Virus record (IMG/VR): IMGVR_UViG_3300002835_000767
Coordinates: 1-30,176 of that record
Length of the DNA: 30,176 nt
Direction: 5' to 3' (one strand)
DNA from: a virus
Shown in pieces: positions 13,002 through 26,649 of this stretch (the first letter of the stretch is position 1; the number at the start of each line of letters is the position of its first letter). The position numbers and the translations under genes were made by a program. Below the pieces are notes generated by a model that worked only from the letters and a program-made list of their open reading frames with translations, made no database searches and was not told the DNA's origin.

Positions 13002-13158
13002 ACAAATAAGAATAGTTAATAGGATGTTTATTCTGTCGCACCTAGATGATATAATAAAAGAGTCCATTTACTATAGGTCACATTCTGGCAGTATTATAGA
13101 AGAAAAAATAGCCACGATTGACATTAATTGCGAAGAGGGTAAAGCTAAAATATTATGA
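12973..13158 (+). CDS. small hypothetical protein
   Basis: 61 residues from ATG 12973, overlapping the HD gene by 29 bases and ending in an ATGA overlap with the primase gene. An internal ATG at 13024 would give 44 residues. No ribosome-binding site is strong for either. It has a central helix (MFILSHLDDIIKESIYY) and no motif. The tight junction with the primase supports translation; function unknown. Confidence 0.5.
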   Translation: MSSGESLRNKQIRIVNRMFILSHLDDIIKESIYYRSHSGSIIEEKIATIDINCEEGKAKIL

Positions 13159-14556: not shown

Positions 14557-17500
14557 TGAAAAATTGGACAAACTTACATAACCATACGGTTTACTCCATG
14601 TTGGATGGTCATGGTCGGATAGAGCAGTATTTAGATAGAGCGCAGTCCCTTGGGATGAAGGGACTAGCGACTACCGATCATGGCAACATCCATTCATGGT
14701 TAGATTTCTATGATGCTGGAGTAGCAACTGGGGTTAAGCCAATTCTAGGTTCTGAATTTTATCAAGCTAGAAAAACAAGATTCGATAAAGATCCAGAAGA
14801 AAGATCAGGCCCAGCTAAGAATGAGTGGGAACAAAGAGGGCCTTATCATATAACTATTTTGGCTAAGAATAATGCCGGGTACAATAACATAATCAAGATG
14901 TCTTCTAAATCTTTTCTTGAAGGGTACTATGTTAAACCAAGAGTCGATCACGATCTCATATCAGAACACTCTGATGGCATTATCGTTTTATCTGGGTGCC
15001 TTAATGGAGAAGTATCTCAAGCTCTATTGAGAGATGATTTTAACTACGCACTAGCGTCGGCTAAAAAGATGCAAGATATTGTAGGAAAAGAAAATTACTT
15101 TATTGAGATTCAAGATCATGGTTTATCTGAGCAAAGAAAAGTATTTAATCAACTAATCGAAATCGCATCTATAATTGGCGCTAAGGTAGTTCCTAGCGGC
15201 GACTGCCATTACGTGCATCAGCATGATGCTAGAGCGCATGACATCATGCTATGCGTAGCAACTAACGCAAATGTCAACACTCCTAATAGATTCTCTTTTA
15301 GTGGCGATGAGTTTTATCTGCAATCCTATGATGACATGGAAAGAAGATTTAATTCAGAGTGGCTGAAAAATACCATGGACGTATGCGACATGGTAGATGT
15401 TAACCTTAATTTTGGAAATATTTATTTTCCCAATTTTCCTATTCCCACAAATGAATCTTCTATAGACTATTTTGAACGATTAGCGTGGAGCGGATTGAAG
15501 GAAAGATATGGCGACCCACTTCCACAACACATTGTAGACAGAGCTCTCTATGAGATGAGAGTTGTAAAAGATATGGGCTTCCCAGAATATTTCTTGGTTG
15601 TTTCTGATTTAGTAAATTGGGCTAAAGATAATAATATTAGAGTCGGATGGGGTAGAGGATCCGCTGCTGGAAGTATTTTGTCATACGCATTTAAAATTAC
15701 TAATCTTGATCCTATTAAATTTGGTTTAATGTTTGAACGATTCTTAGTTGAGGGAAGAAAGTCCATGCCCGATATCGACCTCGACTTTGATGATAGACAT
15801 CGAGACGAAGTCATTGACTATGCTAGATCAAAATATGGATCTGACCACGTTGCACATATCTGCACATTCAACAGAAGTGGTGCTAGACAGTCTATCAGAG
15901 ACGCTGCAAGAGCTCTAGGGCACGATTTTACTACTGGTGACTCAGTTGCAAAGCTAGTTCCACCTCCTATTCTTGGCGTGTCTAAGAGCCTGTCTGAATG
16001 TATGGATGTTGAAGATTTTAATCAACTTTATAATAAAGATTCAACAGCTAAAAATATTATTGACGCAGCTTTTGGACTCGAGGGACTAGTTAGACAAACT
16101 GGCATACATGCTGCTGGAATTGTTATTTCTCGTGAAGCTCTGACTGAGTATCTTCCAGTAATGAAAAAGGGCGTGGACAATCCGTTAGTCACCCAATGGG
16201 ACATGGGAAGAGTTGAGCAATGTGGACTTCTCAAAATTGACTTCCTTGGACTTAGAAATCTTGGCGTTATTGACTCATGCATTAAGTTGGTCCTTAAGCA
16301 TAGAGGCATAGATGTAGACATAGATTCAATTCCCTTAGACGACAGCAAAACTTACGATGAGCTTTGCAAGGGAAACTGTGCAGGGGTATTCCAGCTTGAA
16401 TCATCTGGGATGAGACAGCTGATGATGCAGCTTCAACCGCGTAATGTTGAAGACATTATGGCCTTAATATCCCTGTACAGACCTGGTCCAATGGGTTCTG
16501 GAATGGATAAAGAATACATTGACAGAAAGCACGGTCGTAGTAAAGTTAAATATGAGCATGAAAAACTAGAAAAGGTTCTAGCTCCTTCCCTCGGTATTAT
16601 GTTATACCAAGAGGATGTATTAGGAGTAGCAAGAGAACTAGCTGGATTTACTTCAGCTGAAGCCGACGATCTTAGAAAGGTCATCGGTAAAAAGCTAATG
16701 GATAAAATTGCAAGCATTCGCTCAAAATTCGTAGAAGGCTGTCAAAAAACATCCGGACTAAGTGAATCTTTATCTAATAAAATATTCTCAGATATTGAAT
16801 ACTTCGGAGGATATGGATTCAACAGAGCACACGCAGCTAGCTACGCTATGATTAGCTATGTTACAGCCTACTTAAAGAGTAACTATACAGTTGAGTACAT
16901 GGCAGCACTGATGTCTTCAGTAGTCGGCAATAAAGAAAAGCAATCTTTTTACCTGGCAGACTGTAGAAAGTTGGGAATAAATGTACTTCCTCCATCAGTT
17001 AATTATTCTGGAATTGACTTTGAAGTTGATGGAGACAGCGCAATTGTTTTTGGCTTGTCTGCAATAAATGGAATAGGTGTTTCTATTGCAGACGCAATAG
17101 TTAATGCTCGAGATTTAAGTCTTCCATATACTAGCGTATATGATTTCTTTAGAAGATGTGATCCTTCAACGCTGAAAAAAACAACGCTAGAACATCTTGC
17201 AAGTGCGGGAGCTTTTGATGAGCTATTTGACTATAGGGATGATCTAGAAATTAACAGAATACAAGAAATAGAACTTCTAGAAAAAGAAAAAGAAGAACTA
17301 GGGATGTATGTAACTGATCACCCAGTTAACGGAATATGGGATATATTATCCAAGAAAATTGATTACGAAATTATTGATTTAGCAGAAGTTGCGACTGGAA
17401 CTCCAGTAAGAGTTGGCGGAATTGTAACAGACGTAAAGACTATAATTACAAAAAAGGGGACTAAGATGTATAAGGTCTTACTGGAGGATATATCTTCAGA

Positions 17501-19445: not shown

Positions 19446-19490
19446 AAGAAAAGGGGCCGAATAATCGGCCCCAGATCTTTTTATTTTAAA
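19446..19490. terminator. bidirectional terminator
   Basis: Perfect 8-bp stem (GGGGCCGA 19453-19460, TCGGCCCC 19465-19472) with a four-base loop, an A-rich tract before it and a T-rich tract after it. It lies between the converging plus-strand nuclease gene and the minus-strand gene and can stop both. Confidence 0.92.
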
Positions 19491-19496
19491 TACTGA

Positions 19497-19673
19497 TCAG
19501 AAGTCAGTAACTGGATTTTCTTCAGCTGACAACCAAAGGTTGAAATCTTCGAATTCAGTAACCATCTTGACTGCGGTTCCATGATTGAATCCCAAAGTTG
19601 AGGTTAAGTCTTCAATGATTTCTTCATTGATGTTCTGATTGATACTGTTGATGATTGTTGTTAGTTTGTTCAT
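19497..19673 (-). CDS. small hypothetical protein, the only minus-strand gene
   Basis: 58 residues; start chosen at the ATG ending at 19673, seven bases after a good -10 box. Longer frames (to 19721) would run into the promoter and operator. The protein is helical and acidic (NEEIIEDLTSTLGFNHGTAV is a likely helix-turn-helix-size region) and ends in a Trp- and Glu-containing tail. It is flanked by the bidirectional terminator and by a divergent promoter region with an inverted repeat, the usual setting of a small regulator. No known regulator family can be named; the regulatory role is inferred from context. Confidence 0.65.
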   Translation of the reverse strand: MNKLTTIINSINQNINEEIIEDLTSTLGFNHGTAVKMVTEFEDFNLWLSAEENPVTDF

Positions 19674-19680
19674 GATGGTC

Positions 19681-19709
19681 AGTATATCTCTTCCTGTTTG
19701 TATTTGCAA
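19681..19709 (-). promoter_or_regulatory. promoter of the minus-strand gene
   Basis: Read on the minus strand: -35 TTGCAA (19709-19704), 17-base spacer, -10 TATACT (19686-19681). The ATG begins seven bases after the -10, so the message would be leaderless or nearly so. The -35 sits inside the left arm of the inverted repeat. Confidence 0.6.
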
Positions 19710-19724
19710 CACAAAGTGCAAATA
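19701..19724. repeat. perfect inverted repeat, likely operator
   Basis: TATTTGCA (19701-19708), eight-base spacer, TGCAAATA (19717-19724). It covers the -35 of the minus-strand promoter and ends three bases before the -35 of the plus-strand promoter, so a bound dimer could control both. The arms plus spacer give a two-turn site suited to a dimeric repressor. Confidence 0.65.
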
Positions 19725-19726
19725 TT

Positions 19727-19755
19727 TTGCTTTTTTTATTTTTATGGTGTATAAT
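19727..19755 (+). promoter_or_regulatory. promoter of the nuclease-sigma operon
   Basis: -35 TTGCTT (19727-19732), 17-base spacer, -10 TATAAT (19750-19755). Start of transcription would be near 19762, leaving a leader of about 30 bases with GAAGGA before ATG 19793. This is the best sigma-70-type promoter in the window. Confidence 0.75.
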
Positions 19756-19792
19756 TTATATCACCACATGTTTACCCTATGAAGGATATCGA

Positions 19793-20359
19793 ATGAACAT
19801 AGAAGTTGTCAAGCCGGAAGACTTTTTTTTGGAAAAATCTTCCTTCAAGAAGCATCCCAATCTTAATAACATTAGAAATAAATCAATCAATTCTGAGGTC
19901 ATAGAAAATGATGGAGTCATTGCTCGGAAGAAGGGCAACGCTTACCAGTATACAAGGACCGGATACAGGAAAGATATTGAGCTAAATGTCAGGTCTAGCT
20001 GGGAAGCTAACTTTGTTAGAGTTTTAAATATTTACAAAATAGATTTTAAGTTTGAGCCAACTGTATTTCCATTCCCAATTAAAAGAGGAACCCGAGCCTA
20101 TACTCCTGATTTCTTTTTAACAAGAAATAATGAGTGGATAGAGATTAAAGGGTATCTTGATGATAAAAGTAAAATAAAACTAAAAAGATTCAAAAGATAT
20201 TATCCTGATGAATTTGCAAATTTAACATGTGTGATAAGCAAATATTCAAACGAAGCTAAAAATTTCATGGCAGAAATAGAAGTTTCTAAAATAGTCTTCT
20301 ATGAAGATATAAGAGATTATTATAGCCAATATATTATAAATTGGGAAGGAAAAAAATGA
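19793..20359 (+). CDS. PD-(D/E)XK nuclease (TnsA/phage endonuclease-like)
   Basis: 188 residues, ATG 19793 with GAAGGA upstream; longer starts would lie inside the promoter. The nuclease core is clear: RSSWEANFVRVL (68-79, Glu71), FKFEPTVFPFP, YTPDFF with Asp106, and WIEIKGY with Glu117 and Lys119. The domain pattern resembles the TnsA N-terminal and related phage endonuclease families that cut branched or specific DNA. It is the first gene behind the divergent switch and overlaps the sigma factor gene by four bases (ATGA). Possible roles are resolvase, DNA-end processing or attack on host DNA; the sequence does not decide. Confidence 0.8.
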   Translation: MNIEVVKPEDFFLEKSSFKKHPNLNNIRNKSINSEVIENDGVIARKKGNAYQYTRTGYRKDIELNVRSSWEANFVRVLNIYKIDFKFEPTVFPFPIKRGTRAYTPDFFLTRNNEWIEIKGYLDDKSKIKLKRFKRYYPDEFANLTCVISKYSNEAKNFMAEIEVSKIVFYEDIRDYYSQYIINWEGKK

Positions 20360-21216
20360 CGAGCTACAAAGAACAATACTACTCCTTAGCAGAGCAGGAA
20401 ATGCAAGACCTAATATCCAAAACAAAAAAGGGATCATCAAAAGCTCAAGAAGAGTTATTAAAAGTATTTAGCAACTTCTTGACCAAGTATGTATCATTAT
20501 TGTACTATGGGAAATTTAATTTAAACGACTATGACATCAGGAGATTTATCTCTCTTTTCATAAAGGATCCATCAACGCGCTTTGCCCTAATGAAAAATAA
20601 AATGAATAGTCATAATCTAAAGGTTATTAATGAGTGCATGAGGGGAATTCATTATATGACAAAAAGATATGGAGACGAAGAGGATATCAGGCAGACCGTC
20701 TATATGACATTCTTTCAATGCATATACAGATATGAAAGAAAGGATTCTGCCAAAGGGCCGATTCCATTTAGTGGATTTTTATATAGTTATTTTTTCTACC
20801 TGCTAAAGAAAAACGTAGACACATTCTTAATAGATCAGTTAGGTAGAAAAACATTCCCACTCTTAGACGACGACGCAACAAATGACGAAGGGGATGAAAA
20901 CTTTGTTATTGGCTTTAAGGCTGACCCAATTGAGCACAGCATGGAAGAGCTCTTGGCTACCGATTCAATTGATGAATTTTGGGTTCTAGGCGACAAAGCA
21001 CAGCCCCCCTTTGATAGACTGTCTGTGCAGGAAAGGCAGCTACTAAAGTGGAGATACGCTGATCTGAAAAGATCTAGTCAAATATCACTCATCATTAATG
21101 AGCATCCAAATACTGTAAGAGAACACATAAATAAAATAAAGCAAAAAGTAAAAGAAATAATGAAAGAAGAAAACATGGAAGAACTTTTCTTCCTATTCAA
21201 AACGGAGACGGAATGA
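20356..21216 (+). CDS. phage RNA polymerase sigma factor
   Basis: 286 residues, ATG 20356 with GGAAGG upstream. Residues about 105-160 look like sigma region 2 (DEEDIRQTVYMTFFQCIYRY, then SGFLYSYFFYLLKK), and about 222-270 like region 4: SVQERQLLKWRYADLKR, then a helix-turn-helix NEHPNTVREHINKIKQKV. An acidic linker lies between. It should direct host core polymerase to phage promoters, probably late ones. It is the second gene of the switch-controlled operon. Sequence is divergent from housekeeping sigma, as usual for phage factors. Confidence 0.78.
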   Translation: MTSYKEQYYSLAEQEMQDLISKTKKGSSKAQEELLKVFSNFLTKYVSLLYYGKFNLNDYDIRRFISLFIKDPSTRFALMKNKMNSHNLKVINECMRGIHYMTKRYGDEEDIRQTVYMTFFQCIYRYERKDSAKGPIPFSGFLYSYFFYLLKKNVDTFLIDQLGRKTFPLLDDDATNDEGDENFVIGFKADPIEHSMEELLATDSIDEFWVLGDKAQPPFDRLSVQERQLLKWRYADLKRSSQISLIINEHPNTVREHINKIKQKVKEIMKEENMEELFFLFKTETE

Positions 21217-22440: not shown

Positions 22441-22449
22441 TGCTATAAT
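22441..22449 (+). promoter_or_regulatory. extended -10 promoter of the dNMP kinase gene
   Basis: TGCTATAAT, identical to the site at 718-726. Only six bases separate it from ATG 22456, and no purine-rich ribosome-binding site lies between, so the transcript would be leaderless. Confidence 0.5.
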
Positions 22450-23595: not shown

Positions 23596-23922
23596 ATGAT
23601 AAAACTAATTAAAAAAATAGCAAGAAAAATACTATTTAAAAAGTCACCTGCAAAACTTGGTGGATATGATTTAGATGACAAAGCCAATGTCAAGGAAGAT
23701 AAGCCGATTATATGGACAACTCCTACTACCTCGGTGAATTCTAAGGCTGCAGACATTAAGATCACACCCAGTGACCCATCTAAGGCATCCCCAGTTGCTA
23801 AGGCTGCGCCTTCAGTGGATAAAGTACCACAAAAGAAAAAGGCCGGAAGACCAAAGGGTGGGTCAACATCTAGCAAGAGCAACGCTCAAGTCCCTAAGAA
23901 GTCTCCACCAAATAAAAAGTAA
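23596..23922 (+). CDS. basic AT-hook-like, low-complexity protein
   Basis: 108 residues after AAAGGAC. An amphipathic Lys-rich start (MIKLIKKIARKILFKK) leads into a Pro/Ser/Ala/Lys-rich disordered region and an AT-hook core KKKAGRPKGG (about 84-93), then a tail of Lys and Pro. It resembles histone H1-like or DNA-binding tails and should bind AT-rich DNA. A terminator follows. A role in DNA compaction or transcription is inferred. Confidence 0.65.
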   Translation: MIKLIKKIARKILFKKSPAKLGGYDLDDKANVKEDKPIIWTTPTTSVNSKAADIKITPSDPSKASPVAKAAPSVDKVPQKKKAGRPKGGSTSSKSNAQVPKKSPPNKK

Positions 23923-23940
23923 TATATTACAAACAAAATT

Positions 23941-23963
23941 GAGAGGCGCTGCCTCTCTTTTTT
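23941..23963 (+). terminator. rho-independent terminator
   Basis: Perfect 7-bp stem GAGAGGC / GCCTCTC with a three-base loop, followed by six T. It ends the operon with the AT-hook-like protein. Confidence 0.9.
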
Positions 23964-23973
23964 GCTATATGGG

Positions 23974-23982
23974 ATTACTATA
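23974..23982 (+). promoter_or_regulatory. candidate phage promoter motif ATTACTATA
   Basis: This nonamer lies just after a terminator and 40 bases before ATG 24014. The same nonamer recurs at 25191-25199 in the same setting. Possibly the target of the phage sigma factor; weak evidence. Confidence 0.3.
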
Positions 23983-24013
23983 CATATTACACTATTATAC
24001 AAGGTAGGTCATC

Positions 24014-24163
24014 ATGGCTAAGGATAAAGGGTGGGGAAGTAAAACTTCTTCAGAAAAAAATCAATATAAATATCTCAAAGACGCAGTAATGAATGTCCAA
24101 GATTTCCCAAAGACAGATACTAAGTATTCAGATCATTGGAAAAACGCTAAAAAGCAGAAGTAA
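24014..24163 (+). CDS. small lysine-rich protein
   Basis: 49 residues, ATG 24014 with AAGGTAGG upstream. Basic (many Lys, Trp at 7 and 42), starting MAKDKGWGSK and ending KNAKKQK. First of a run of small basic genes placed end to end. No family recognised. Confidence 0.6.
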   Translation: MAKDKGWGSKTSSEKNQYKYLKDAVMNVQDFPKTDTKYSDHWKNAKKQK

Positions 24164-25233: not shown

Positions 25234-26649
25234 ATGTCTAAATTCAAAAATATTTTATCAGTATTGCTAATAACAATAGGCATTGGATTGTTTTTAAATC
25301 CAGTTAGTAACTCATCAGTAGCATTGGCTACTAGTGGCGGTGGTGGACCAATCGTATTAGATGGAATGGATCCAGTTTGTCACTCTGGATGGGAAAGTAC
25401 TGGACAATATATAGCCAAGGTTCTTAAAAAGGTACATGATGGTGCGCGAAATCTAAACAATGGCCATATTGCAATTGTCGGATCTAACGCAACAACCACT
25501 TCATGTGGGGCTAACTGGGCCAGTCAATTAAGTGCACAGTTTTTAGTTGAATTTCCCACTGCTCCTATAATTGATTTTTATATTACAGATTCACAAATAA
25601 GCAATTTTTTTAGTACTACAATTACGTCTAATCCTCCAGCTGTATTATGGATACCAGATAACTGGAGTCGTTCATCCGGCACTGAAGCAATATTTACAGC
25701 CAATGCAGAAAAGATAGCTGACTTTGTTAATGGTGGTGGCGGTCTGTTTGCAAATATGGGATCGTACGGTTGGCTGACTGCACTTTTACCTGGCGCTATC
25801 TATAATAATGGAGGGTGCAATGGTGGACCAGAAGCTACAACTGATGGGGTAAATGATTTTGGTTTAACAAATACACTTGTAGCTGCGTGCTGGCATGGGT
25901 ATTTCACCGGCAATGTAGGAACATTAAAGACTCTTGTCGACTACCCATATCCAGAAGCATCCGACTCTAGAAAGGCTGTTTCCATTGGAGGTGGCAGTGT
26001 ATCTCTTCCTAGTTCTTTTGTACTATCATATAGTCCTGCAACCCCTCGTGCAGGTGAGCCAATTACTATTACAGCAACGGCTCAAACTTTAGCTGGAGTG
26101 CCACAGTCTGGAGTCACAGTATCAATGACAGTTTTCTCTGGTCCAGATTTAGGGCAAACCTTTACCGCAACAACTGATGCAAGTGGTATAGCTAACATCA
26201 CTGTCAACACGGCATCGCAGGGCACGGCAGTTTATACCGCTAGTGCAACGGTTAATGGTGTAGTTAAAGTTGTCTCAATTACGGTTTTATGGGATGCGCC
26301 AGCGCCTACTACGACTATTGCAACAACGACGATTGCTCCCACTACTATCCCCCTAACTACAGTTCCCGAAACAACTACAACTCAAGCCCCTATCGTAACT
26401 GAACCCGAAACTACAACTACTATTATGAATGTTACAACAGTGCCACAAATAATCGTGGAGGAAACCACAACAACAGTTCACGACCACAGTAGTCATGATC
26501 ATGGGTCACAAGATACTCCGCAGAGCCCACTTCCAACGACAGGGCAAGACGGTAGTTCATCTATGAGTATCGGCGCGTTTTTGATTACTATAGGTATAGC
26601 AATATTTATATTTAATCGAAAGACTAGAAACTATGGCAAAGCCAGCTGA
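25234..26649 (+). CDS. LPXTG-type cell-wall-anchored surface protein
   Basis: 471 residues, ATG 25234 after GAGGGAGAT. A signal peptide (about 1-32, basic start, hydrophobic core, likely cut after VALA) is followed by an N-terminal alpha/beta domain with paired Cys and a glycine-rich turn (DFVNGGGGLF; loosely like glutamine-amidotransferase-fold domains), a bacterial Ig-like domain (about 262-353), a Thr/Pro-rich stalk (355-415), a His/Asp patch (HDHSSHDHG) and the sorting signal LPTTG (433-437), membrane span and RKTR tail. Host sortase would link it to peptidoglycan. No sortase gene is seen here. It may alter adhesion, block other phages or mask receptors. Confidence 0.88.
   Translation: MSKFKNILSVLLITIGIGLFLNPVSNSSVALATSGGGGPIVLDGMDPVCHSGWESTGQYIAKVLKKVHDGARNLNNGHIAIVGSNATTTSCGANWASQLSAQFLVEFPTAPIIDFYITDSQISNFFSTTITSNPPAVLWIPDNWSRSSGTEAIFTANAEKIADFVNGGGGLFANMGSYGWLTALLPGAIYNNGGCNGGPEATTDGVNDFGLTNTLVAACWHGYFTGNVGTLKTLVDYPYPEASDSRKAVSIGGGSVSLPSSFVLSYSPATPRAGEPITITATAQTLAGVPQSGVTVSMTVFSGPDLGQTFTATTDASGIANITVNTASQGTAVYTASATVNGVVKVVSITVLWDAPAPTTTIATTTIAPTTIPLTTVPETTTTQAPIVTEPETTTTIMNVTTVPQIIVEETTTTVHDHSSHDHGSQDTPQSPLPTTGQDGSSSMSIGAFLITIGIAIFIFNRKTRNYGKAS

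Follow-up and report, generated by a model that had tools for sequence, protein, structure and literature searches.

In the pLS20 conjugation system of Bacillus subtilis, the divergent promoters Pc and Pr overlap and can hold RNA polymerase at only one of them at a time, which makes the polymerase itself a part of the switch; its regulator, RcoLS20, is the product of one of the two divergent genes and loops the DNA between two operators (PMC4207663). The phage locus described here would be similar if its divergent promoters exclude each other and if a candidate operator-like site overlapping them is bound; this site is a covarying dyad confined to one class of relatives (the wide type, below). 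It differs from pLS20 in that a single dyad is seen, and the divergent gene, which encodes a protein of 58 residues (p58), is unlikely to specify a DNA binder. A DNA-binding regulator encoded by a divergent gene was not found here, as p58 is acidic and searches of its sequence and fold returned no DNA-binding fold.

The short gap, the divergent promoters and the dyad symmetry also recall the CI/Cro region of phage lambda. However, HTH repressor genes flanking repeated operators, as in lambda, were not found: the phage site has one dyad and no adjoining HTH repressor gene, and neither HTH_3 nor ribbon-helix-helix repressors, the classes scanned, were detected in five long related records. A third likeness is to late and middle transcription in phage T4 (the sigma factor gp55, the coactivator gp33 and AsiA), in that a sigma-like factor is accompanied by a small acidic candidate partner. 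The echoes of T4 in p58 itself are weak and not significant (late coactivator profile PF16805, E 0.12; gp33 structure, E 1.6), and p58 is shorter than gp55, gp33 and AsiA. Finally, mycobacteria have many leaderless mRNAs (PMC4633059). The p58 promoter resembles those of leaderless mRNAs in Actinobacteria in being placed so that a transcript would begin on the start codon or next to it, with the difference that for p58 this is predicted from spacing (PMC4633059). The principle of such a switch is already known; what is worth testing at this locus is a conserved, opposite-strand, predicted leaderless gene, its unusual protein and three interchangeable layouts of the region between the genes.

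The divergent locus and its phages

The window, that is the whole stretch of DNA analysed, comprises positions 1–30,176 of the IMG/VR record IMGVR_UViG_3300002835_000767. A gap of 119 bases separates the ATG of the minus-strand p58 gene (19673) from that of a rightward operon (19793), which encodes a resolvase-like nuclease, a sigma-factor-like protein, a 171-residue protein and, later, RNase H (Table 1). Apart from p58, the ORFs called on the minus strand of the window are short ones of spurious appearance, and in a near-identical record of 91.6 kb (G008) the opposite-strand coding called comes to about 402 bp in total.

The sigma, nuclease and p58 proteins served as queries to gather relatives from IMG/VR. 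Because many loci derive from the same contigs, we counted distinct gaps and not loci, which gave 44 versions. Many of these loci share the order exonuclease, p58 (reversed), nuclease, sigma factor, 171-residue protein and RNase H, and the divergence of the 58-codon gene from the resolvase-sigma operon, which had been noted in the window, recurs in essentially all loci found. In one contig (L113, just upstream of 2043) the gap is present and p58 is absent, with the C-terminus of the exonuclease abutting the gap; this is either a deletion or an assembly artefact. In relatives with sequence at that position, a hairpin terminator lies 3′ of p58 as it does in the window.

The initial annotation had also placed a sigma factor in the operon, and the profile matches bear this out in every homologue: phrog_351 covers residues 6–273 of the protein (E 2.4e-8). 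A PDB profile search with the sigma alignment gave no match, and the AlphaFold model of the sigma factor (pLDDT 54) was too poor and was left unused.

The phage family is uncultured and its host is probably an actinobacterium. This assignment is drawn from a WhiB domain (E 2e-14) at 23906–24106 of a related 193-kb record (G001), together with a protein in the window (25234–26649) carrying an LPxTG-like sorting signal and a membrane anchor, which indicates a Gram-positive host. No relative of the nuclease was found in GTDB genomes, and the INPHARED phage collection yielded no close relative of the sigma factor, the single match being a local one of 31% in Moorella phage MTATph1.

Table 1. Features of the divergent region and flanking genes, in window coordinates.
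Feature	Position	Strand	Remarks
Bidirectional intrinsic terminator	19453..19472	both	Between exonuclease gene and p58; ends p58 as a one-gene transcript
p58, 58-codon gene	19497..19673	-	Acidic three-helix protein with UBA-like motif; conserved here in nearly all relatives found
p58 -10, TATACT	19681..19686	-	7 bases before ATG; spacing kept in 31/44 distinct gaps
Left dyad arm, TATTTGCA	19701..19708		Sequence; arm covariation in relatives
p58 -35, TTGCAA	19704..19709	-	17 bp from -10; overlaps left dyad arm
Right dyad arm, TGCAAATA	19717..19724		Sequence; arm covariation in relatives
T-rich tract	19725..19745	+	Between dyad and plus -10; contains TTGCTT
Operon -35-like, TTGCTT	19727..19732	+	17 bp from -10
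Resolvase-sigma operon -10, TATAAT	19750..19755	+	Inside TGTATAAT
Shine-Dalgarno-like GAAGGA of nuclease gene	19781..19786	+	AGGATA kept 5′ of start codon
PD-(D/E)XK-type nuclease, Holliday-junction-resolvase-like	19793..20359	+	phrog_9019 E 2e-16; PF05367 E 2e-5, below its cut-off
Sigma-factor-like protein	20356..21216	+	ATGA overlap with nuclease gene; phrog_351 and phrog_1740 in 11/11 homologues

Two promoters and three gap layouts

Two divergent promoters had been proposed for the gap; both are seen in the window and their geometry is kept across the gaps of the relatives. In 31 of the 44 gaps the p58 promoter takes the form TTGNNN-N17-TANNNT (with an 18-bp spacer in L087), its -10 ending seven bases short of the start codon, and the seven-base distance from -10 to start holds in every gap of the close and wide types described below (31/31). 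A spacing this fixed predicts that transcription begins at the start codon or one base before it, and the p58 mRNA is accordingly described here as a predicted leaderless one. On the other strand, TGTATA[AC]T of the operon promoter was read by eye from the sequences in 42 of the 44 gaps; the -35 that goes with it in the window, TTGCTT, is a poor match to the consensus.

In a strict scan for leaderless promoters over the window and five long records, the window and four of the records had a match at p58. Three further strict matches open into frames of 11–16 codons and are likely to be chance. In six loci sharing one gap (that of L150), ATT takes the place of the p58 ATG at the leaderless position; an in-frame ATG close by overlaps the p58 -10.

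The gaps fall into three layouts, whose counts come from sorting the promoter table by hand, with the spacing of L037, L214 (wide) and L140 set by eye. In the close type (14 gaps) the -35 boxes stand 5–7 bp apart and the apparent inverted repeat consists of the two boxes themselves. The wide type (17 gaps, including the window) has its -35 boxes about 14–21 bp apart (17 bp in the window), with the dyad between them and then a T-rich tract ahead of the plus -10. The short type (13 gaps, nearly all of 89–98 bases) has neither a dyad nor a promoter at the leaderless position; a Shine-Dalgarno-like sequence precedes p58, and the plus promoter and p58 are both present in the absence of the repeat. 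These 13 gaps lack both the dyad and the leaderless promoter, so the phage family can do without a layout that has them. On a tree of the nuclease protein most of the short types group together, the close types are scattered among the wide ones, and seven changes of layout are needed overall. The expectation that the repeat would be conserved along with the promoters therefore holds for the lineage of the window and about six others, and fails for the 14 close and 13 short gap types.

Other promoter-like motifs recur in these phages. TGCTATAAT, an extended -10 form without a clear -35, lies at 718–726 and 22441–22449 of the window and is found in the records G008, G005 and G003; it recurs directly ahead of operons such as that for ribonucleotide reductase. 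TGATATAAT, a perfect extended -10, is present at about 13047–13055 of the window, at 14861 of G008 and at orthologous sites of G005 and G001, and recurs ahead of a primase-like gene and of structural genes starting MDxKRKVV. Structural genes of these phages thus have recurrent promoter-like motifs too. Among four phages, an element of the form GTTGTTTTTATAA ... TGTTACTAT is shared (oriented coordinates: G008 10989, G001 38557, G003 46400, G005 18928) ahead of a gene starting MGIPGV, MAIPGV or MATPGV, which probably encodes the tail sheath; this element is a candidate promoter for the phage sigma factor.

The p58 protein

With dN/dS of 0.03–0.27 where it could be computed, p58 is clearly under selection as a protein. 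Its net charge lies between -7 and -13 across all homologues. AlphaFold gives three helices (pLDDT 77, pTM 0.51), in which neither an HTH nor a ribbon-helix-helix was found by Pfam, PHROGs or fold, and fold searches of the PDB and of viral models failed to return a match with an E value of 0.001 or below.

Across 22 diverse members of the family the invariant residues are just Met1, Leu4, an Ala (Ala34 in the window's p58) and the Phe at the C-terminus. The C-terminus (19500–19511 in the window) is an acidic stretch followed by the Phe, and acidic residues precede the Phe in most of the 22; such a tail resembles those of single-strand DNA binding proteins. For T7 gp2.5, the C-terminal Phe is reported to be essential (reference 23 of PMC9917605). 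Furthermore, 8 of the 22 homologues match UBA/TS-N weakly, with E values of 1 or less (lowest 1.4e-4), without reaching the Pfam gathering cut-off (one member scores 21, against 22.4). The UBA/TS-N matches and the acidic tail ending in Phe suggest a docking role, and it is more likely, judging by these features, that p58 acts on a protein partner, which may be the polymerase, the sigma factor or a replication protein.

The dyad and how the switch may work

A repeat between the promoters had been described, and it is indeed there: TATTTGCA-N8-TGCAAATA at 19701–19724 has arms complementary at 8/8 positions around an 8-base spacer, the left arm overlapping the minus -35 and the right arm stopping 2 bp before the plus -35. 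As a single sequence it is not significant, because a dyad of 8 bp with a spacer of 3–20 arises in 5% of Markov-shuffled gaps and the window holds 45 of them, partly overlapping. No other copy was found at 0–1 mismatch in the window or in two related records. The significance of the dyad comes instead from comparison with relatives.

For this comparison each left arm was set against its own right region and against the right regions of other phages. In the wide type, own arms pair at 6.9/9 positions and exchanged arms at 5.5/9 (permutation p ≤0.00035 in the sets tested). When seven wide lineages are used, the exact permutation p is 2–14 of 5040 (0.0004–0.003) according to the representatives and the scoring, a result that rests on some seven hand-chosen lineages and a permutation that ignores the tree. 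The arms change in pairs, as in TTTGCAA/TTGCAAA, TCACAAC/GTTGTGA and GCTACAAC/GTTGTAGC. Because the arms covary, a symmetric element is taken to be maintained in the lineage of the window and about six others and, by this comparison of arms, the palindrome is real in some lineages, that of the window included. In the close type arm covariation is absent (5.0 for own arms, 5.04 for exchanged arms, p 0.68).

An operator could be dispensed with altogether if the symmetry were that of two -35 boxes read in opposite directions by one sigma factor, together with a relic -35 where a T-rich insertion shifted the plus promoter. The plus -35, at exactly 17 bp from its -10, does form the right element of 14 gaps, and between the relatives L197 and L087 the difference is a T-rich insertion of 10 bp, with the right box left at its old place. 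In the wide type, however, the right arm is off the -35 spacing; it nevertheless agrees with the left arm outside the TTG core, in a way that is specific to each lineage (TCACAAC/GTTGTGA, GCTACAAC/GTTGTAGC). We regard this account as unlikely, though one to be taken seriously.

The initial annotation suggested that a p58 dimer could sit on the repeat and shut both promoters, as an autoregulated switch. A divergent gene beside a dyad is the classic layout of an autorepressor, and the dyad is single-copy in the phage. The protein itself argues otherwise, being acidic in every homologue and lacking an HTH by profile or fold. In addition, the L188 lineage has the half-site TCACAA and not TTTGCAA, yet its p58 shares 86% identity with that of the window and has an unchanged helix 31–41, and p58 is kept in the 13 gap types that have no dyad. 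For these reasons p58 is an unlikely repressor, binding of the repeat by a p58 dimer is not upheld, and the autoregulated switch as a whole is improbable.

We think it equally improbable that the dyad works as a nucleic-acid hairpin, whether terminator-like on the plus strand with the T-rich sequence or in a leader on the minus strand. Arms that covary without their sequence being kept, a spacer that differs by one base between the close relatives L141 and L150, and the T-rich tract that follows would all suit a hairpin. On the minus strand, most of the unpaired arm positions would form G-U pairs, but this tally is too small to rely on and is biased by the double role of the left arm, which is also a -35. 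Against these points, the stems are short and A+T rich, the predicted promoters would transcribe the dyad on neither strand, and a strong bidirectional terminator is already present upstream in the relatives with sequence there. As a terminator the dyad is disfavoured, since one already lies between the exonuclease gene and p58. That the palindrome is there by chance, as the rate in shuffled gaps would allow, is very improbable given that the arms covary across lineages.

The reading that we prefer, and to which we give slightly better than even chances, is that of two competing divergent promoters with a lineage-specific, operator-like dyad and a putative binder. It builds on gene order, promoter spacing, arm covariation and protein conservation, all of them observed directly, and from these we infer that the promoters are active, that p58 starts leaderless, that polymerases compete, that a binder exists and that the switch has a role in timing. 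The gap would consist of two bipartite sigma-70-type promoters pointing apart, the minus promoter giving a short and probably leaderless p58 mRNA that stops at the bidirectional terminator, and the plus promoter giving the mRNA of the resolvase-sigma operon. Because the -35 boxes are close (17 bp in the window, 5–7 bp in sister lineages), polymerase at one promoter should hinder the other, although two polymerases might coexist with 17 bp between the boxes. Through this presumed competition, use of the p58 promoter would lower use of the sigma-operon promoter, and vice versa, so that the balance of promoter strengths would set the level of sigma-operon expression. In wide-type phages the dyad would add a second control over both promoters. 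Since the dyad occupies the stretch from one -35 box to the other and its two arms change in concert, it is probably acted on by an additional symmetric factor or structure; p58 is unlikely to be this putative binder. A role for the sigma factor in timing the late genes, as first suggested for this operon, is plausible.

A bolder combination, which we consider improbable when taken as a whole, would make p58 a new small regulator, acidic, UBA-like and with an SSB-like Phe tail, expressed from the sole opposite-strand leaderless transcript. Promoter competition and p58 dosage would then jointly time the late shift, with p58 docking on the polymerase, the sigma factor or replication proteins and not binding DNA.

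In summary, the preferred reading of competing promoters with a lineage-specific dyad offers a compact, testable candidate for the way in which these uncultured phages, a large group with probably actinobacterial hosts, control their own sigma factor. With three layouts kept around one gene pair, what promoter competition does can be told apart from what an operator does, and the p58 proteins, a conserved family of uncharted function, are worth assaying.
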